The translations under genes and the position numbers were made by a program. From a virus: a stretch of 64,000 bases of DNA. Shown here in pieces: positions 40,340 through 61,420 of this stretch. Below the pieces are notes generated by a model. The model made no database searches. It worked only from the letters and a program-made list of their open reading frames with translations, and was not told the DNA's origin. Position 1 is the stretch's first letter. The number at the start of each line of letters is the position of its first letter. Where the stretch lies: positions 1-64,000 of IMG/VR virus record IMGVR_UViG_3300025401_000028; one strand, 5' to 3'.

Positions 40340-43118
40340 AGAAAGTTCCGCCGTCTAAATTAATTGGCGAAGTAAATATAAGATTTGCAGTATAAAGAGC
40401 AGCTGTATATGTTACGTTTGAATTGAATATTGTATTGGTTCCACCAAATGTATTATTTCCAGTATAAGTTGTGTTATTAGAAGTATATGCATTTACAGCA
40501 TTAGAATAAGCAGTTGTTGCATTAGAAGTAACAGAACCTGTGGTTGCATAATTACTAAGATTAGATGATAACTGCGCATTAGAAACTACGTTAGCTGCAG
40601 ATACAGTTCCAACGAAAGATGTATTATTCGCAGTACCACTAAATGCTGTAGAATTAATTACTACACTAACTGATGTATTACCAATGAAAATATTAGAAGA
40701 AGAAATATTAGCATATGCTATACTATTACCAAGTTGAATTAGTGAAGTGTTTACATATAAAAGATTAGCAGTAGTAGCAAACGCAGCACCTTGAGGAGCA
40801 TAAACTGGATAACCTCCAGGACCATTATTAAGAGGACCTCCAATTGTAATAGCAGGTCCATATTGAGTACTACCGCCACCTCCGCCAAGAAGATTTGGAG
40901 AAATAGATATATTAAGAGTTGCATTACCAGTAAATATATGATCTGAGTACATAGCCGAGTTTACGCTACTATTACCAACAGATATATCATTATTTACAGA
41001 TACATGGTTAGCCGATAAACTATTCGTAGTAATAGAATTTGCAACAATATTACCTACAGCAGAATCACTAGCCCAGTAAACACCAGTACCATTAGAAGCT
41101 AGTACTGTACCATTAGCACCAAATGCACCGTTTGCGATAATTTGTTTAAGAGTAATCGAACTTGAGTTTATGCTTAATGTATTGCTACCAAAAGTAACAG
41201 CAATATTACTTGTAAATGTTGCTCCAGAAAGTAATGCATAATTACTAAGATTAGATGATAACTGCGCATTAGAAACTACGTTAGCTGCTGTAACAGACCC
41301 AACGTATAATGTATTATTTGATGTTTGACTGTAATTCGTGGTGTTGATTATAGCATAAACAGAAGTATTGCCAATGTTTATAGTATTAGCCCAAAAATTT
41401 GCGATATGAAAAGAAGGATCTGTTGTTACAATATTTATAGCTTGGTCTGGTTCTGGAGTATAATTATCAAATACTTTCCAGTAACCGTCCGCATAATCTC
41501 TCATTATACCAGAATGGTGATAAGATCCATCATTATAACCACCAACGATACCAAGATCTGGATTTATTCCTGATTTATAAGATGCAGTACCATTTGATGT
41601 AAATGTACCAGTAAATGTATTCGAAACTTGAAATGTAGAAGAATTTGCGAATAATACAGGAACATAATTTGCATTATTGAAACCAGAAGGTACAATTCCT
41701 GTTATAGAAACGACACCTAAATTACTAAAAGCATTAAGTGCAGTATACGTAATAACAGAACCGTTACCAGAAGCATTAGTAACTGTTGCAGTGGCAGGTT
41801 CATTAAGGTACAACATATTATCCACTGTCGTAAAGTTAGCTGCATTAACAGTAACAGTTGTACCATAAACATTTAAATTTCCAGAAATAGTTACGTTTCT
41901 TCCAACATTAAGATCATATGTTGTTTGTATATTATTTGCTGTGACATTGCCTGTAAATGTTGCTCCAGTAAGAGCTGCATAATTTGTGAGGTTAGAAGAC
42001 AGTTGACCATTAGAAACTACGTTAGCTGCAGATACAGAACCAACGAATAACGTATTATTAGCAGTTAAAGTAGCTACGTTAGCAGACAAACCAGCTGTTG
42101 TTTGGTAGTTAGCTAAGTTGTTATTTAAATTTGTAGCAGTAACATAATTACTCAAGTTGCTTGATAACTGGGCATTTGATACAACATTAGCTGCAGATAC
42201 AGAACCAACAAAATTTGTATTATTTGAAGTTAAAGTAGCTACGTTAGCAGATAACCCAGCAGTAGTTTGATAATTACTCAAGTTGCTTGATAACTGGGCA
42301 TTTGATACGACATTAGCTGCAGATACAGAACCAACAAAATTTGTATTATTTGAAGTTAGTGTAGCTACATTTGCCGACAAACCAGCTGTGGTTTGGTAGT
42401 TAGTTAAGTTAGATGATAGCTGGGAATTACTTACTACGTTAGCCGCAGATACAGAACCAACAAAATTTGTATTATTTGCAGTTAAAGTAGCTACGTTAGC
42501 AGATAACCCAGCAGTAGTTTGATAGTTGGCAAGATTAGCAACTAATTGAGCATTCGATACGACATTAGCTGCAGATACAGAACCAACGAAAGATGTATTA
42601 TTTGAAGTTAGTGTAGCTACGTTAGCAGATAAACCAGCAGTAGTTTGATAGTTAGCTAAATTGTTAGTTAAATTTGTAGCAGTAACGTAATTGGCAAGAT
42701 TAGCAATTAACTGTGCATTACTTACTACGTTAGCAGCTGGTAGACCACCAATATATAATGAATTATTAGCAGTACCATTAATCGTTGAATTAAATGTAAT
42801 TGTGTTAGTAAATGTTTGGGTATTCGACCAAATATACTGTGCGGAAGTATTTACGCCAACAGCACCTAATGATTGCCATATTACTGCGCTTCCATTCGTT
42901 GATAGAACTTGACCATTAGTACCAGCTGAATTACTTGAGTCAAGGAAATAAGAATTAACAATAAGATTAGAAGCAAACGTAATAACATTCGTAAAGGTAT
43001 ATTGTTGTGATGTGTTTACACTACCTCCACCACCGCCATTAGCAACTATTGCGAAGTTACTGTTTAGATCATTAGCTGTAAGTGTTTGTCCTTGGATGAA
43101 TATATGTAAATTTGCCAT
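40338..43118 (-). CDS. Repeat-rich tail fibre (926 aa)
   Basis: The N-terminal module ANLHIFIQGQTLTANDLNSN, NFAIVANGGGGG is followed by SAQYIWSNTQTFTNTITFNS. Residues about 130-375 are about six copies of a 40-residue block (QTTAGLSANVATLTSNN, FVGSVSAANVVSNAQL). A more ordered domain follows (PEPDQAINIVTTDPSFHIAN, DGSYHHSGIMRDYADGYWKV), typical of fibre intermediate modules. It ends in NLDGGTF. It overlaps the PAAR gene stop as TAATG. Probable baseplate or side fibre. Confidence 0.75.
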   Translation of the reverse strand: MANLHIFIQGQTLTANDLNSNFAIVANGGGGGSVNTSQQYTFTNVITFASNLIVNSYFLDSSNSAGTNGQVLSTNGSAVIWQSLGAVGVNTSAQYIWSNTQTFTNTITFNSTINGTANNSLYIGGLPAANVVSNAQLIANLANYVTATNLTNNLANYQTTAGLSANVATLTSNNTSFVGSVSAANVVSNAQLVANLANYQTTAGLSANVATLTANNTNFVGSVSAANVVSNSQLSSNLTNYQTTAGLSANVATLTSNNTNFVGSVSAANVVSNAQLSSNLSNYQTTAGLSANVATLTSNNTNFVGSVSAANVVSNAQLSSNLSNYVTATNLNNNLANYQTTAGLSANVATLTANNTLFVGSVSAANVVSNGQLSSNLTNYAALTGATFTGNVTANNIQTTYDLNVGRNVTISGNLNVYGTTVTVNAANFTTVDNMLYLNEPATATVTNASGNGSVITYTALNAFSNLGVVSITGIVPSGFNNANYVPVLFANSSTFQVSNTFTGTFTSNGTASYKSGINPDLGIVGGYNDGSYHHSGIMRDYADGYWKVFDNYTPEPDQAINIVTTDPSFHIANFWANTINIGNTSVYAIINTTNYSQTSNNTLYVGSVTAANVVSNAQLSSNLSNYALLSGATFTSNIAVTFGSNTLSINSSSITLKQIIANGAFGANGTVLASNGTGVYWASDSAVGNIVANSITTNSLSANHVSVNNDISVGNSSVNSAMYSDHIFTGNATLNISISPNLLGGGGGSTQYGPAITIGGPLNNGPGGYPVYAPQGAAFATTANLLYVNTSLIQLGNSIAYANISSSNIFIGNTSVSVVINSTAFSGTANNTSFVGTVSAANVVSNAQLSSNLSNYATTGSVTSNATTAYSNAVNAYTSNNTTYTGNNTFGGTNTIFNSNVTYTAALYTANLIFTSPINLDGGTF
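41996..42740 (-). repeat. About six 120-bp repeats in the 926-residue fibre
   Basis: Imperfect tandem units contain gtagctacgttagcagata and cagcagtagtttgatagtt. The same block, diverged, occurs at 9710-9970 in the 838-residue fibre, so the two loci share recombinable shaft sequence. Boundaries are approximate. Confidence 0.7.
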
Positions 43119-54737: not shown

Positions 54738-55670
54738 TCAAGCACGAGCAGCTAACTTATTAAAGAACTCCAAACTATCATCATCGTCATCGTCAGCAGC
54801 CATAACTGGTGCTGGCTTTGACTTGATTGTAGGAGCAGGAGTCTCGTTCCAAGGTGCATCATCCTCATCGACAGAAACAGCAGTAGCACGTGCAGCGGCT
54901 GGAGTCTTACCGAGTGTAGAATTATCAAGACCAAGAACCTTGTTTAGCTTCGCCTTCAGTTCATCATAAGACTTGAAATTAGAAGGTGCAAGGAAGTCTT
55001 GAAGCGAATGCTCTTTCTTCCAAACTGCTTCCATTTCCGAATCATCATCGAACAATGGACCAGATGCCGAAAACTCAGAACGGTCATAGTTGCGATAACC
55101 ATCGACGTTACGAATCTTCAACTTAAGATTAGCACCTTCCCAAAGATCGAATGGGTTGGTTGGCTTTTCTCCTGGAAACTGTGGGTTCATAAGATCATTG
55201 AGCTTATCCCAGATCTTCTTGCCATAACGGAACAAGAATACCTTACCTTCGTTTTCAGGATTTTGTTGATCCGTAACAACGTAGACATTAGAGATAAAGT
55301 TCAGTTTACGCTTTTGAGTACGAGCAACTTCCTTATCTGATTCAAGACCAGAGTTCCAAAGTTGTGTATTTAATTCACCGACAGGATCTACCTTACCGAT
55401 AGTAGTCAATGAGTTCTCGATATACCAAGAGCCAGTTGGACCTTTGAAACCGTGTTCAAACATGCGAATGAAAGGAACATCTTCACCAGTCGGTGCTGGG
55501 AGGAAACGGATAACAGCATAGCCATTGCCAGCCTTATCCACGTTAGGATACCAAAAGCGATCGTCGTTCTTCTTATCGCTACCTTGGTTAGTTGAGAGCT
55601 TTGTCAATTCAGCATTGAGCTTATCGAGTGCTGCACGACCTGAGTTCTTCTTGAGTTCATTAAAGTTCAT
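54738..55670 (-). CDS. gp32: Single-stranded DNA-binding protein gp32
   Basis: I choose the ATG at 55670, preceded by GGAG. The 310-residue product has the gp32 layout: a basic N-terminal cooperativity region (NFNELKKNSGRAALDKLNAE), then the OB core with DRFWYPNVDKAGNGYAVIRF, GSWYIENSLTTIGKVDPVGE, NPENEGKVFLFRYGKKIWDK and DLWEGANLKLKIRNVDGYRN, and an acidic tail (DDDDDDSLEFFNKLAARA). The Cys residues that bind zinc in T4 gp32 are absent from the equivalent region. It coats replication ssDNA and recruits gp59/helicase. It is convergent with gp29 with no gap. Confidence 0.95.
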   Translation of the reverse strand: MNFNELKKNSGRAALDKLNAELTKLSTNQGSDKKNDDRFWYPNVDKAGNGYAVIRFLPAPTGEDVPFIRMFEHGFKGPTGSWYIENSLTTIGKVDPVGELNTQLWNSGLESDKEVARTQKRKLNFISNVYVVTDQQNPENEGKVFLFRYGKKIWDKLNDLMNPQFPGEKPTNPFDLWEGANLKLKIRNVDGYRNYDRSEFSASGPLFDDDSEMEAVWKKEHSLQDFLAPSNFKSYDELKAKLNKVLGLDNSTLGKTPAAARATAVSVDEDDAPWNETPAPTIKSKPAPVMAADDDDDDSLEFFNKLAARA

Positions 55671-55710
55671 ATGTATTCTCCGTATTGTTAATATTAATAG
55701 TATTGATCTT

Positions 55711-55736
55711 ATGTTGAGCAGTGTAACGCTCAACAT
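55711..55736 (-). promoter_or_regulatory. Hairpin at the 5' end of gp32 mRNA
   Basis: ATGTTGAGC (minus 55736-55728) pairs perfectly with GCTCAACAT (55719-55711) around an 8-base loop. The promoter just upstream predicts a transcript start near 55735, so the message begins with this stem. T4 gp32 regulates its own translation through a structured leader; this is a candidate for the same role. Confidence 0.55.
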
Positions 55737-55913: not shown

Positions 55914-56495
55914 TCAGTTCTCGTAATAATCAAGAACTGTTTTAGACATCTTTGCTTTATCATAGTTAATAAATGGCTTGTATTTCTTTATCTTATTCGA
56001 AAGCTGTTCCCACAATGGATCGTACTCCATATTTTTATCCCAATAACTTAAACAATTGACAAGATCAGAAAGAACAATAAGAGTTTCGAGGCATATAGTA
56101 TTACTAAGATACAACTTAATAATATGAGGATGCGAGCCAGTGGTGGCAATAAAGTTACTATTAAAATCAGTAAGAAGATGACCCAAATCATTTTTTACAA
56201 CATAAGTTAAAGACTGAATACGTTTAGACCATTCCTGATAAACTTTATTTGCTTCTTCGCTATAAGCAATATCTCTAATCCATGCTTTTTCGTTTTTGAT
56301 TAGATTGGCAATAAGAAAGTTTTTAGGATCTGGATGTTTAGCTATTTTTTGGAAAAATAATTTATCTGAACGAGTATCAAACTTATCATATGATAGTTTG
56401 CTTTTACCATTGTATTTAAAATAATCATATGATGGTTTAGTGAAATGATTTTTTAGTGCAAGATATTCTTTATAGCAGTCAAATGCTGACATCAT
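55914..56495 (-). CDS. gp59: Helicase loader gp59
   Basis: This 193-residue protein matches T4 gp59 (217 residues) in layout: a start resembling the T4 VYKLYLMIKQHM region (MSAFDCYKEYLALKNHFTKP), RSDKLFFQKIAKHPDPKNFL, IANLIKNEKAWIRDIAYSEE, LSNTICLETLIVLSDLVNCL, and KIKKYKPFINYDKAK. gp59 loads the gp41 helicase onto gp32-coated forks; it lies two genes before gp32, as expected from T4. Its first 30 codons are an exact copy of a sequence 792 bp upstream, so its start was duplicated together with insertion of the oxygenase gene. Confidence 0.88.
   Translation of the reverse strand: MMSAFDCYKEYLALKNHFTKPSYDYFKYNGKSKLSYDKFDTRSDKLFFQKIAKHPDPKNFLIANLIKNEKAWIRDIAYSEEANKVYQEWSKRIQSLTYVVKNDLGHLLTDFNSNFIATTGSHPHIIKLYLSNTICLETLIVLSDLVNCLSYWDKNMEYDPLWEQLSNKIKKYKPFINYDKAKMSKTVLDYYEN
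56405..56495. repeat. 91-bp perfect direct repeat, copy 1 (functional gp59 start)
   Basis: Identical to 57197-57287, 792 bp away. It begins taccattgtatttaaaataa (plus strand) and ends at the gp59 ATG. It covers codons 1-30 of gp59 and the last five codons plus stop of the oxygenase gene in another frame. Confidence 0.97.
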
Positions 56496-57183
56496 TGTTG
56501 TTTCCGATACTGAGTTTTAAATTTCCAGAAACAGAAATTCTTTCTTCATCTGAAGTAAAGAAAGGATGAACTAAATGGTTTAATTTAGAAGGGAATAAAC
56601 ATATAATACCTTCAAATGATTTATCGATAGGTAAGTTTTCACTTCTTATTCTACCTAAAATATCCGTAAAAACAAAATTAAATGTAGAGGTAGAATTATC
56701 TTTTTTCTTTATATTAGGAAATACTCCAAACTCATCTTGAAGGTCATAAGGAATTTTTACCCAAATAACAAAAGATAACACGCCACTATGATCGTGAATG
56801 GGATTAAACTCATATTTGTTTTGAAAATTAACCCATATATTACTTAATACTAAAGGAAGATCACCAGTGAGAATATCCGTTAAATCTGTAATATCATTTG
56901 CTTGCAAATAATTTTTTGCCAGCATCATAATGTAATTATTAATTGATGGAATTACTGGTTCTAAACTATATTCTTTTTTTATATGACCTGCTAATTTGCC
57001 GTTGAACTTTTCAACATTTTTGTCATCTTCTTTAATTTTATTAATTTGATTAATAATAATATCCATCAATTTTTGAGGAACTTTATCATACATAACTGTT
57101 GGATTTCCAAAAGAAAACATATAGCTAGCTTCTGGATTTTTATGAAGATCTTTAATAAAATCGTACCTTTTTGGATCTTGCAC
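56479..57183 (-). CDS. 2OG-Fe(II) oxygenase family protein
   Basis: This 234-residue protein is of the putative 2OG-Fe(II) oxygenase type common in T4-like phages. Iron ligands are visible as HDH in EFNPIHDHSGVLSFVIWVKI (H and D, about 133-135) and the distal His in FPSKLNHLVHPFFTSDEERI, with the Arg and SGNL that contact 2-oxoglutarate near the end. The substrate is unknown. The gene separates a 91-bp fragment of the gp59 start from intact gp59. Its C-terminal NDVSI and stop are encoded by the gp59 repeat itself. Confidence 0.85.
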   Translation of the reverse strand: MQDPKRYDFIKDLHKNPEASYMFSFGNPTVMYDKVPQKLMDIIINQINKIKEDDKNVEKFNGKLAGHIKKEYSLEPVIPSINNYIMMLAKNYLQANDITDLTDILTGDLPLVLSNIWVNFQNKYEFNPIHDHSGVLSFVIWVKIPYDLQDEFGVFPNIKKKDNSTSTFNFVFTDILGRIRSENLPIDKSFEGIICLFPSKLNHLVHPFFTSDEERISVSGNLKLSIGNNNDVSI

Positions 57184-57196
57184 GTTATTATACTCC

Positions 57197-57287
57197 TACC
57201 ATTGTATTTAAAATAATCATATGATGGTTTAGTGAAATGATTTTTTAGTGCAAGATATTCTTTATAGCAGTCAAATGCTGACATCAT
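57197..57287 (-). pseudogene. 91-bp direct repeat, copy 2: truncated gp59 start
   Basis: Identical to 56405-56495. It encodes the first 30 codons of gp59 and then leaves homology, with the frame running on to 57066 as unrelated residues. Its ATG overlaps the upstream gene stop (AGATGATG), the layout expected of the original gp59 start, so this is probably the ancestral site now decapitated. Ribosomes may still start here and make a short dead-end peptide. Confidence 0.85.
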
Positions 57288-57524: not shown

Positions 57525-57749
57525 TCAAAATGGTAGCTTCGCGCCACCCTTTAAATAATTTAAATTCTCTGCATCAGCTTGTAGCTTAGATTTAATTACA
57601 GGATCTTTTTTAATGATGTTAGCAATAACTTCAATATCGAGATTATTTTTTTCACACCATGTCGTAATAGCATCAATATAATCTACATCGTTATTATGTA
57701 TCTTTTCAATTTCAGAATTAAACGTATTAGAATCAAAAACGAATTTCAT
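57525..57749 (-). CDS. gp33: Late transcription coactivator gp33
   Basis: I choose the ATG at 57749; the longer frame runs into the tRNA cluster. This 74-residue protein begins MKFVFDSNTFNSEIEKIHN and has YIDAITTWCEKNNLDIEVIA, IIKKDPVIKSKLQADAENLN and LKGGAKLP. The YxDAixxWCExNxixxExiA then ExLNxLK-xxLP order is the short gp33 type of T4-like phages of marine bacteria. gp33 bridges RNA polymerase, gp55 and the sliding clamp for late transcription. T4 order 33-59-32 is retained. Confidence 0.78.
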   Translation of the reverse strand: MKFVFDSNTFNSEIEKIHNNDVDYIDAITTWCEKNNLDIEVIANIIKKDPVIKSKLQADAENLNYLKGGAKLPF

Positions 57750-57816: not shown

Positions 57817-57891
57817 TGGTGGACCGAGTAGGATTCGAACCTACGATCGCACTGTTATGAGCAGTGAGCCTTACCGCTTGGCTATCAGTCC
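57817..57891 (-). tRNA. tRNA-Met (CAT anticodon)
   Basis: It folds as a 75-nt tRNA with encoded CCA. Acceptor GGACTGA pairs with TCGGTCC; anticodon stem CACTG/CAGTG surrounds loop CTCATAA; T arm TAGGTTCGAATCCTA. G1-C72 argues against initiator tRNA. The D arm AGCCAAGCGGTAAGGCT resembles bacterial tRNA-Gln, so the body may have come from another isoacceptor. A lysidine-modified tRNA-Ile cannot be excluded from sequence alone. Confidence 0.88.
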
Positions 57892-57897
57892 GAAAAT

Positions 57898-57973
57898 TGG
57901 CGATCACCAAGGGACTCGAACCCCTAACCTAGAGAGTAGAAATCTCTTGCTCTTCCAGTTGAGCTAGGTGACC
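57898..57973 (-). tRNA. tRNA-Arg (TCT anticodon)
   Basis: It folds as a 76-nt tRNA with encoded CCA. Acceptor GGTCACC pairs with GGTGATC (one G-U). Anticodon stem AGAGA/TCTCT surrounds loop TTTCTAC, giving anticodon TCT, which reads AGA. T arm GGGGTTCGAGTCCCT (closing G-T). AGA is a common Arg codon in these AT-rich genes, so the tRNA probably supplements the host. Confidence 0.93.
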
Positions 57974-57984
57974 AATTTGAATTG

Positions 57985-58292
57985 AAGTGAGCCCGTTCTG
58001 TTTCGAGGTGGAACCCATACCCAAGAGATTAAGCCGCTAGGCGCATCTCAAGAAGTGAATTATCGTTTGCAGATAATTTATTTATGCTATTGTCTCGATC
58101 TTGTCTTTATTACACCAGTCGATCCTATTTCGCCCCCATCAAAGATACACCGTCCTTACGACGCCCCAAATTAATTGGCTCTAGCAGTTAAGAACGACTC
58201 AGCGGTCTTATCCAGTGTATCCGTGGTGGAGGCGGTGGGTACTGCCCCCACGTCCTCAGTGTCTATTCCACATGATGTCATCAACATCAGCA
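57985..58292 (-). ncRNA. ssrA: Circularly permuted two-piece tmRNA
   Basis: Reading the minus strand: the acceptor piece (about 58292-58224) has T arm GTGGG-GGCAGTA-CCCAC (58251-58235), acceptor strand CGCCTCC (58234-58228) and ACCA (58227-58224). An internal spacer (58223-58138) follows, closed by GATACAC/GTGTATC (58221-58215 with 58150-58144). The coding piece then begins GGGGGCGAAATAGGATCGAC at 58137, which pairs with CGCCTCC, the classic tmRNA 5' end. The tag frame GCA...TAA at 58070-58029 encodes ANDNSLLEMRLAA; GAGAT/ATCTC forms a hairpin over its stop. This order (3' half first) is the alphaproteobacterial two-piece form. Outer ends are approximate. Confidence 0.9.
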
Positions 58293-58297
58293 TATTC

Positions 58298-58328
58298 TAT
58301 TTATACCGTATATTAGATCATTAGTCAA
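58298..58328 (-). promoter_or_regulatory. Overlapping early and late promoters of the tmRNA/tRNA cluster
   Basis: On the minus strand TTGACT (58328-58323), a 17-base spacer and TATAAA (58305-58300) form a sigma-70 promoter. The same -10 is part of an exact TATAAATA (58305-58298), the T4 late element. Transcription should start near 58292, at the tmRNA acceptor piece. Confidence 0.75.
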
Positions 58329-60711: not shown

Positions 60712-61260
60712 TTACCCTTTCCAGGTATCCATAAAAAGTAGTATAGCTTTATCATCGATATGTTTAGAAAGATTCTTTAAATCTTCTAAATTCTCGATCT
60801 TATCAATAGCCTCGTATATACGGAGCATAGCCCCATCATTACCAGCCGAAGCTTCTCGCCATGCGAAACGATAGCCAAACTGTTTAGTCATCTCGGCATG
60901 AATAGCATCTTCTAGAGTGCCTTCACTACCAATCTCAGTAAACAGATAACGTACACAAACATCCTCACGACCGTAATTGTTATGCCTCATGTAATTACAA
61001 CAATTATGTTTACCGATTTTGATTCCATAAACACGATCAAAGATATTAGTGCTCTTACCAATATAACCTATATTAGCGTCTATTAGATTATTAGTCAAGT
61101 TATTTTTATGTATAATTTGATAGACACCATGAGCACCATATTGTTCTACCAGATCAGTGTACCGTTTATTGGCACGACCCACAGCATCAACTAGTGGTTG
61201 CCAATCAGTTTTTGTTTTAATTAATTTCGTAAAATCAAGTGGCTTGATCATTTCATTCAT
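60712..61260 (-). CDS. GIY-YIG-like nuclease
   Basis: I choose the ATG at 61260 (MNEMIKPL), the start that best fits an AAGGA site; two other in-frame ATGs are nearby. The 182-residue product has GVYQIIHKNN (GIY strand, about 45-50), IGYIGKSTNIFDRVYGIKIG (YIG strand with the usual Arg), then HAEMTKQFGYRFAWREASAG with a candidate metal-binding Glu. It contains a His/Cys cluster KHNCCNYMRHNN. It may be a homing-type or repair endonuclease. A promoter-like sequence lies inside it. Confidence 0.7.
   Translation of the reverse strand: MNEMIKPLDFTKLIKTKTDWQPLVDAVGRANKRYTDLVEQYGAHGVYQIIHKNNLTNNLIDANIGYIGKSTNIFDRVYGIKIGKHNCCNYMRHNNYGREDVCVRYLFTEIGSEGTLEDAIHAEMTKQFGYRFAWREASAGNDGAMLRIYEAIDKIENLEDLKNLSKHIDDKAILLFMDTWKG
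61070..61098 (-). promoter_or_regulatory. Internal sigma-70-like promoter inside the GIY-YIG gene
   Basis: TTGACT (61098-61093), a 17-base spacer and TAATAT (61075-61070) on the minus strand. From the C before TTGACT, 21 of 24 bases match the tmRNA promoter at 58298-58328. It would transcribe the 371-residue gene and those downstream. Confidence 0.45.
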
Positions 61261-61420
61261 CGCAAGCAGCATCCTTTAATGTATCTAATTCTTTTGATAG
61301 TTCGCGGATCTTAGTTTGTATGGATAAATCACCAAGCTGTAGAGATAATTCCCATAGCTCTTCTAGGACTTCTTCCATATACAGTATCATTTCAATACGA
61401 GGAACTTGTTGTAAAATCAT
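61253..61420 (-). CDS. Small acidic helical protein (55 aa)
   Basis: A 55-codon frame starts at an ATG overlapping the upstream stop as TAATG (61422-61418). The product begins MILQQVPRIEMILYMEEVLE and continues ELWELSLQLGDLSIQTKIRE, a Leu/Glu amphipathic helix. It ends in DAACDE, 8 bases inside the nuclease gene. It fills the gap between two genes in the same direction. Not recognised. Confidence 0.5.
   Translation of the reverse strand: MILQQVPRIEMILYMEEVLEELWELSLQLGDLSIQTKIRELSKELDTLKDAACDE

Follow-up and report, generated by a model that had tools for sequence, protein, structure and literature searches.

A T4-like phage with a probable split tmRNA gene of its own and a spacer that is exchanged and often gene-bearing in its relatives

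The locus described here is in all probability a split tmRNA gene owned by a T4-like phage, with a spacer that is exchanged among relatives and often bears a gene in them. The window (the whole stretch of DNA analysed, 64,000 nt) is part of an IMG/VR record of 67,978 bases, and the phage is T4-like, with homologues of sheath, terminase, baseplate, gp32, gp59 and gp33 proteins. Phage two-piece tmRNA is already known as a kind, and the gene of the window alone is a further member. What is new comes from comparison: a phage lineage apart from the bacterial copies, a composite promoter together with a genomic address next to gp33, gp59 and gp32, the exchange of spacers, and the genes within them. 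In searches of the open-access literature, we found no description of an exchangeable, often gene-bearing spacer, or of a lineage with the composite promoter.

The initial annotation had proposed a circularly permuted two-piece tmRNA, and this holds: positions 58292-57985 (minus strand) were matched by cmscan at full length to two Rfam families. The Infernal search that it had suggested gave 112.9 bits (E 5.4e-30, cut-off 50) for RF01849 (alpha_tmRNA) over the whole model, 1-355 of 355, and 93.2 bits (cut-off 47) for RF04321 (tmRNA_permuted) over 1-213 of 213, so that the gene is recognised both as a full-length alpha_tmRNA and as a permuted two-piece one. The acceptor stem, CCA, T arm, spacer stem, tag and stop hairpin named at that time were all located on the minus strand, where the gene is composed as follows.

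58224..58292, minus strand: acceptor piece (full-length RF01849 and RF04321 matches; 5' start placed from the promoter and the model)
58251-58235, minus strand: T arm with loop GGCAGTA (from the sequence)
58234-58228, minus strand: acceptor 3' strand CGCCTCC (from the sequence)
58227 and 58226-58224, minus strand: A73 and CCA (from the sequence)
58138..58223, minus strand: 86-nt spacer, predicted to be removed (stem register kept in relatives; three-frame reading)
58222-58213/58152-58143, minus strand: processing stem flanking the spacer, 10 pairs of which 2 are G-U
57985..58137, minus strand: coding piece (the RF01849 match ends at 57986; 3' end putative)
58137-58131, minus strand: acceptor 5' strand GGGGGCG (from the sequence)
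58029..58070, minus strand: tag frame GCA...TAA, encoding ANDNSLLEMRLAA (translation; the RF04321 match ends at 58029)
57986..58025, minus strand: 3' element TTGGGTATGGGTTCCACCTCGAAACAGAACGGGCTCACT; by eye, GGGTTC and GGGCTC pair in a hairpin

The processing stem consists of the GATACAC/GTGTATC pairing seen earlier plus three more pairs, and a reading of the spacer in three frames revealed no closed frame filling its 86 nt. The tag has 13 residues (58070-58032) and an LAA end, and a GAGAT/ATCTC hairpin spans its stop codon TAA (58031-58029). Cores of the 3' element recur in viral stretches: 33 contain one of 23 bases, and 75 a shorter one of 18 bases. The T loop had been described as non-standard, but GGCAGTA is ordinary for the family (Rfam consensus GGCgGUA) and is the most frequent variant, found in 19 of 66 distinct viral T arms. 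A resume-codon hairpin AATTATC/GATAATT, seen by eye in the window, was absent in the other members read and was discarded.

ARAGORN did not call a tmRNA gene in the window, and in the Rfam alignment the window is without part of the PK1-like segment, which Sinorhizobium phage Phosso retains (a loss read from alignments only). Taken together, these two observations make a weakened gene possible and are what would be expected if the gene were decaying and no longer functional. We consider such decay very improbable, as the window shows no damage to the acceptor stem, T arm, A73-CCA, G3.U70 or tag, and three relatives (L270, L282 and L287) retain the same elements with coding pieces 97-98% identical. 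ARAGORN, moreover, called 10 and missed 10 of 20 other tmRNA-bearing loci, a non-random sample chosen as tmRNA holders. Both the acceptor and the spacer stem form in a single-sequence fold of the window gene, whose z-score is modest (-2.05; 4 of 100 shuffles did as well).

The stems covary. In 131 distinct viral spacers the processing stem has on average 7.59 of 8 pairs, compared with 5.57 for partners taken from different sequences and 3.16-5.21 when the strands are paired in four other registers; it is weaker in 51 bacterial spacers of sufficient length (6.31 vs 4.12). A search for the 3' element led to a credible gene for 69 of 78 elements (6 gave none and 3 were without the motif), and these 69 genes carry 16 distinct acceptor stems, in which positions 4-7 vary with compensation. 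G3.U70, an alanine identity element, is present in all 16 stems, and ACCA in all 69 genes; the search had imposed GG at 1-2, CC at 71-72, A73 and the first two Cs of CCA, so that G3, U70 and the last A were free to differ. Even in L340, which by eye has U2-A71, G3.U70 is still present. The T-stem pairs also covary, with the reservation that our gene parser demanded at least 4 of 5 of them. The parser further required 7/7 acceptor pairing, the sequence TCCACC, a TCGAC-like motif, and AA or VA at the end of the tag. It accepted 106 of 120 loci listed by a scan with a coding-piece-start pattern; L340, L344 and similar variants do not pass it and were read by eye. Tag ends of AA or VA were dropped as evidence, since the parser required them.

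We take the covariation of the stems and the kept identity elements as selection for a chargeable, tagging RNA. The window has G3.U70, A73, CCA and a tag with its stop, which are the sequence features of a functional tmRNA, and we judge it very likely that its RNA works as a tmRNA of the phage. A decoy or competitor RNA, which would titrate SmpB, alanyl-tRNA synthetase or RNase P and would not rescue ribosomes, is a less probable alternative. In E. coli, inhibition of the endogenous tmRNA has been reported for a tag-less, tmRNA-like RNA from phage DS6A (PMC11915505), and no evidence of the present study separates decoy from rescue. The window, however, keeps an open tag frame, a resume codon, a stop and the LAA end, all needless for a decoy, and we regard this role as unlikely. 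SmpB was not found in the 67,978-base record, which is a fragment, and SmpB of the host is therefore assumed.

In front of the gene lies a composite promoter, and behind it two tRNA genes and genes that recur at this place in relatives.

58298..58328, minus strand: composite promoter, with -35 TTGACT (58328-58323), a 17-base gap and TATAAATA (58305-58298)
57898..57973, minus strand: tRNA-Arg (TCT), by ARAGORN and Rfam
57817..57891, minus strand: tRNA-Met (CAT), by ARAGORN and Rfam
57525..57749, minus strand: gp33-like late-transcription coactivator (phrog_254, E 1.8e-16; start codon chosen by eye)
55914..56495, minus strand: gp59-like helicase loader (phrog_269, E 5.6e-55)
54738..55736, minus strand: gp32-like single-strand DNA-binding protein (phrog_224, E 9.4e-116)

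Just 5' of the predicted transcript, TATAAATA is a sigma70 -10 and a T4 late motif in one, which is the sequence expected of a late promoter; TATAAAT is named as the known T4-like late motif in PMC9004378. The motif stands ahead of 108 of 163 unique viral tmRNA genes (shuffled mean 2.92) and of 1 of 108 bacterial ones, and the complete composite promoter, with a TTGAC-like -35, ahead of 74 of these 163 viral genes (mean of shuffles 0.04) and of 0 of 108 bacterial, where these counts, like those of synteny below, come from related and hence non-independent sequences. In the sample from the coding-piece-start pattern alone, the numbers are 65/92 for the motif and 47/92 for the composite promoter. 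The frequency of TATAAATA in the record itself was dropped as promoter evidence (7 vs 6 for a reversed control); five of the six copies away from the tmRNA sit at most 50 bases upstream of frame starts in a mechanical frame list, and the one at 41432 is inside a frame.

Downstream of the tmRNA, the order is two tRNAs followed by homologues of gp33, a 2OG-Fe(II) oxygenase, gp59 and gp32. Relatives of gp33, gp59 and gp32 occur near viral tmRNAs at 99, 104 and 76 of 227 loci, respectively, all of them downstream and on the same strand. Counted per unique viral tmRNA, the figures are 73, 83 and 63 of 176, with at least one of the three close downstream in 98 of 176, and all are lower bounds because many loci are short. 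Two side observations concern this region. The frames at 55914-56495 and 57066-57287 (minus strand) share the starting peptide MMSAFDCYKEYLALKNHFTKPSYDYFKYNG with the oxygenase gene between them, as if an insertion had partly duplicated gp59. In addition, a second tRNA-like 3' half (GCAGGTTCGAGTCCTGCTCGGTCCACCA, about 57800-57773 of the window), without a 5' half, follows tRNA-Met.

These data bear on the explanation that the gene is a recent acquisition from a host, or host DNA in a mis-binned contig, without function for the phage. Its family resemblance to alphaproteobacterial tmRNA would agree with such an origin, as would the fact that tmRNA genes are known integration sites (PMC11915505). 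The gene is, however, situated between phage genes, relatives keep its place upstream of gp33-gp59-gp32, a T4-late motif stands in front of it, and it falls on a branch separate from 91 bacterial copies. This explanation, already extremely improbable, was rejected on synteny, tree and promoter.

The tree was computed from 75 viral and 91 alphaproteobacterial tmRNAs with spacers excluded. A single branch splits the two sets (support 100/100, and found in 100% of 200 bootstrap trees), although the tree is unrooted, its viral rows are long and the bootstrap had not settled. An earlier tree with 45 bacterial rows gave the split with 98/84 and placed one viral row, L037, next to the bacteria; a constraint grouping the viral rows without L037 was also not rejected (p-AU 0.38), so that either side is possible for this row. 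Among the 91 bacterial rows, 46 were obtained by a class-wide family search that used no sequence pattern (30 best-scoring loci and 20 hand-picked regions, mostly of small genomes, 4 of these 50 loci being unparsed), and SAR11 was not identified among the rows. Descent of the phage copies from within the alphaproteobacterial tmRNAs was not found in this unrooted tree of 75 and 91. Because of the split, we call the phage gene alpha-type and not alphaproteobacterial. The tag of the window is absent from 43 distinct bacterial tags sampled. A comparison of acceptor-stem diversity between phages and bacteria was discarded, as the bacterial sample came from a pattern that fixes the acceptor strand; a less biased bacterial set also has the acceptor strands GGGGGTG, GGGGACG, GGGGATG and GGGGCTG.

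The type of the alphaproteobacterial two-piece tmRNA is Caulobacter ssrA. With this class (RF01849) the window shares the order of the pieces, the T loop GGCRGTA, the acceptor stem, an ANDN-type tag and a 3' element with ACCU-G-AACAGAA. The phage copies differ in their separate branch, in the composite T4-late/sigma70 promoter and in longer spacers, and some of them, that of the window included, are without part of PK1.

The initial annotation was thus borne out in placing a permuted tmRNA of alphaproteobacterial type in a T4-like phage, given the Rfam matches and the homologues of structural and replication genes, but not in regarding such a copy as unusual. Melnitz and Mosig are published phage cases of two-piece tmRNA, that of Melnitz directly upstream of a gp33-type coactivator, and two-piece structures account for 53 of 133 unique phage tmRNA structures, 50 of the 53 being marine or aquatic (PMC9004378). 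In viral contigs, the coding-piece-start pattern had at least 120 matches. Of nine named phages tested, six have a permuted tmRNA (Phosso, Melnitz, Mosig, HTVC008M, RHph_I1_18 and DLP_6), while Cr30, phiM12 and Ochrobactrum phage OC had no tmRNA match; Melnitz had been chosen for its known tmRNA, Phosso for a DNA match to the window gene, and the other seven as sheath relatives. On the published cases, the pattern scan and these six phages, the gene is not unusual as a kind. It takes its place instead in a phage lineage that has a promoter design and a genomic neighbourhood of its own.

In the viewed stretches of five of these phages, the tmRNA is annotated in Melnitz and Mosig and unannotated in HTVC008M, DLP_6 and Phosso. 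In Stenotrophomonas phage DLP_6 (L529), the permuted tmRNA at 102838-103059 of the record (RF04321, 136.8 bits) lies beside a tRNA cluster, and in Phosso (L002, 2481-2890) it has a 410-nt spacer in which CGCTGCAAACG and CGTTTGCAGCG form a perfect hairpin and no gene is evident.

An alphaproteobacterial host had also been proposed, and for this the case is weak. Melnitz infects a Methylophilales strain, DLP_6 is by its record field a phage of Stenotrophomonas, a gammaproteobacterium that itself has a one-piece tmRNA, and the phage copies stand apart in the tree. Given the hosts of Melnitz and DLP_6, a permuted tmRNA alone is no pointer to an alphaproteobacterial host. The top-ranked sheath matches are Stenotrophomonas phage DLP_6, Caulobacter phage Cr30 and phages of Ochrobactrum, Rhizobium and Sinorhizobium, those of gp32 are Melnitz phages (54%), and those of gp33 are Synechococcus phages; as judged from these proteins, the best matches do not settle a host. 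The naming of a specific host from the tmRNA was dropped.

For the phage-owned tmRNA we propose the following course of events. RNA polymerase would initiate at the composite promoter, which would work as a host sigma70-type promoter and once more with the phage late system; the precursor may extend through both tRNAs. The acceptor stem would stack on the processing stem, so giving a tRNA-like precursor from which RNase P would release the 5' end of the coding piece and 3' tRNA processing the encoded CCA. The spacer would be discarded, with the acceptor and coding pieces remaining paired. The RNA would then be charged with alanine via G3.U70 and carried by host SmpB to stalled ribosomes, which would be rescued with the addition of ANDNSLLEMRLAA. 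Since it is discarded, the spacer would be free to change; among relatives it is swapped along with the adjoining acceptor halves, sometimes with further parts of the acceptor piece, and it carries a gene in many of them.

Closely related genes can indeed have unrelated spacers. The 86-nt spacer of the window is identical in L272 and L277, while L270, L282 and L287 have a 95-nt spacer, with coding pieces 97-98% and upstream regions 88% identical to the window, and L066 has a 74-nt spacer, with 92% and 75% identity, respectively. Spacer interiors are at the level of shuffled sequences (55 vs 53, sd 2.8; 48 vs 51, sd 3.0); for the window and L270, the interior scores 55 against a shuffled 53 where the coding piece is 97% identical. 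A second group, the phages with the tag ANDNNAYEAFALAA, has coding pieces that are 97-100% identical (85-87% for L306) combined with three acceptor stems and spacers of 73, 80, 85, 110, 126, 482 and 492 nt. Upstream identity within this group is only 37-89% and L306 has a different T arm, which implies that exchange reaches the acceptor piece and is not restricted to the spacer. Permutation of the gene brings the two acceptor halves and the spacer into one unbroken stretch, so that one replacement swaps all three and the pairing is kept. On these comparisons, the spacer is exchanged among relatives, the window included.

Separately, four loci (L264, L265, L283 and L290) have the tag and 3' part of the window together with another acceptor piece, the stem GGGGATG and an 8-nt spacer; to judge from these parts, their gene is a hybrid.

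Many of the exchanged spacers are long. With the same scan pattern, spacers of at least 100 nt were found in 46 of 97 unique viral tmRNAs vs 1 of 111 bacterial ones. The class-wide bacterial set adds two, of 115 and 165 nt (L655 and L656), which gave no convincing gene when read in three frames. A spacer gene was accepted if its frame covers at least 60% of the spacer and ends at most 15 nt from the coding piece. Such frames are present in 21 of the 46 long viral spacers, compared with a mean of 2.22 and a maximum of 7 in 100 shuffles, and in 4 of 12 long spacers of the 3'-element set (shuffled mean 0.88, max 3). A set chosen by TAAGGA, and biased by this choice, has them in 21 of 26 (shuffled mean 0.77, max 4). 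The frames, all of them in relatives, represent several unrelated families, among them an HNH-type protein and small membrane-like proteins; the small membrane protein had no match in cultured phages. Values of dN/dS are 0.10-0.26 in six of seven spacer-gene families and 0.51 in one (0.10 and 0.12 for two 'WSICAD' sets, 0.17, 0.51, 0.26, 0.26, and 0.13 for two HNH sequences, one of the values of 0.26 resting on four differences summed over pairs), which indicates purifying selection in several families.

We also considered that these genes are chance frames in spacers that drift fast without any exchange. The frameless spacers (25 of 46, 8 of 12 in the 3'-element set, and that of the window) would be in line with this, as would the family with a dN/dS of 0.51, the other that depends on four differences, and the run-on frames described below, which lack a shuffle control. 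Chance does not account, however, for 21 of 46 where no shuffle exceeded 7, for four families whose values of 0.10-0.17 rest on tens of differences, or for a 'WSICAD' family found in a tmRNA spacer at 57 of its best 80 loci of 85. Nor would drift explain seven loci (L295, L305, L307, L308, L309, L319 and L333) with coding pieces 97-100% identical, wholly different spacers and two acceptor stems. Chance and drift, already disfavoured, are in our opinion highly unlikely, and exchange of spacers with real genes in several families is preferred.

The frames are fitted closely to the processing stem. AAGGA begins its first strand in 33 of 49 listed frames, a proportion favoured by the TAAGGA scan, and 27 of the 49 stop one base ahead of the coding piece. 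Thirteen of these 27, from six unrelated families, end in VSL, which is the translation of the stem's second strand. A ribosome-binding site and a stop codon within this stem would tie translation to RNA maturation.

The HNH-type protein is encoded in the 482- and 492-nt spacers of relatives. Its residues 2-51 match phrog_655 ('homing endonuclease') with E 6.7e-15, whereas Pfam PF01844 gave 20.6 and 18.0 bits, below the cut-off of 21.4. Among the best 80 of 187 contigs with HNH relatives, 34 have a permuted-tmRNA match, 20 of them above the family cut-off, and 46, including some short contigs, have none. The HNH gene is inside the spacer in 13 of these best 80 (8 parsed, L340 and L344 by eye, L345 and L346 by positions, and L358 overlapping the coding piece), and by position it is probably also in the spacer of L364. 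Elsewhere it lies just upstream of the tmRNA, divergent in L348, L350, L351 and L359 and on the same strand in L352. In two records, L349 and L365, the HNH gene is found between a full permuted tmRNA and a weak or partial second tmRNA match on the same strand, which is perhaps the trace of an insertion. Cultured phages have only partial relatives of the protein, with less than 60% identity, in 13 Synechococcus phage records. For 'WSICAD', nesting in a permuted-tmRNA spacer was seen for the 57 of the best 80 loci mentioned above and for those alone. The distribution of the two families is what one would expect if they home into the tmRNA locus and are carried by it.

A comparable arrangement is the tmRNA with a group I intron and a LAGLIDADG homing endonuclease gene (PMC11915505), where an endonuclease gene is likewise sheltered in a stretch that is not part of the mature RNA. 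There the shelter is a self-splicing intron in the T loop, whereas in relatives of the window a permuted gene offers its spacer, which RNA processing is predicted to remove without ligation, and the protein is HNH-type.

Other frames do not stop ahead of the coding piece. Run-on frames with a ribosome-binding motif that continue into it are present in 13 of 48 further spacers of at least 90 nt, counted without a shuffle control, and often reach the TAG of GGGGGCGAAATAGG. The cultured phage Melnitz is one case, with a led frame of 41 codons in its spacer. The gene of the window and the two-piece tmRNAs of Methylophilales phage Melnitz and Pelagibacter phage Mosig (PMC9004378) all belong to T4-like phages and lie upstream of gp33, and Melnitz, like the window, has a composite promoter (TTGACA-N17-TATAAATA). 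The window differs in having two tRNAs between tmRNA and gp33, which are directly adjacent in Melnitz and Mosig, and in its gene-free 86-nt spacer.

A broader interpretation, to which we give about an even chance as a whole, is that the discarded spacer of the phage split tmRNA is a general landing site for genes, an 'intron without splicing'. Permutation would make one cassette of the acceptor halves and the spacer, which homing endonucleases or small genes may replace whole while the tmRNA survives. Run-on spacer frames would become stop-less messages upon maturation, and thus substrates of their own tmRNA, and the window would represent one exchanged, gene-free allele. If the spacer genes are real, permutation allows cargo to be carried in a discarded spacer without a splicing machinery, and small phage proteins hidden in stretches annotated as tmRNA, or not annotated at all, become visible.

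Two minor observations may be added. A frame of 186 aa at 60712-61272 of the window, 2.4 kb upstream of the tmRNA, has by eye a GIY-YIG-like stretch (NIGYIGKSTNIFDRVYG) and is a possible free-standing endonuclease; Pfam gave nothing for it at E 0.01, and its PHROG matches are all weak (E 0.06-0.09). In L271 the 3' element occurs twice, at 1022-1039 and 1315-1332, the second copy following a small frame outside any parser-accepted tmRNA.
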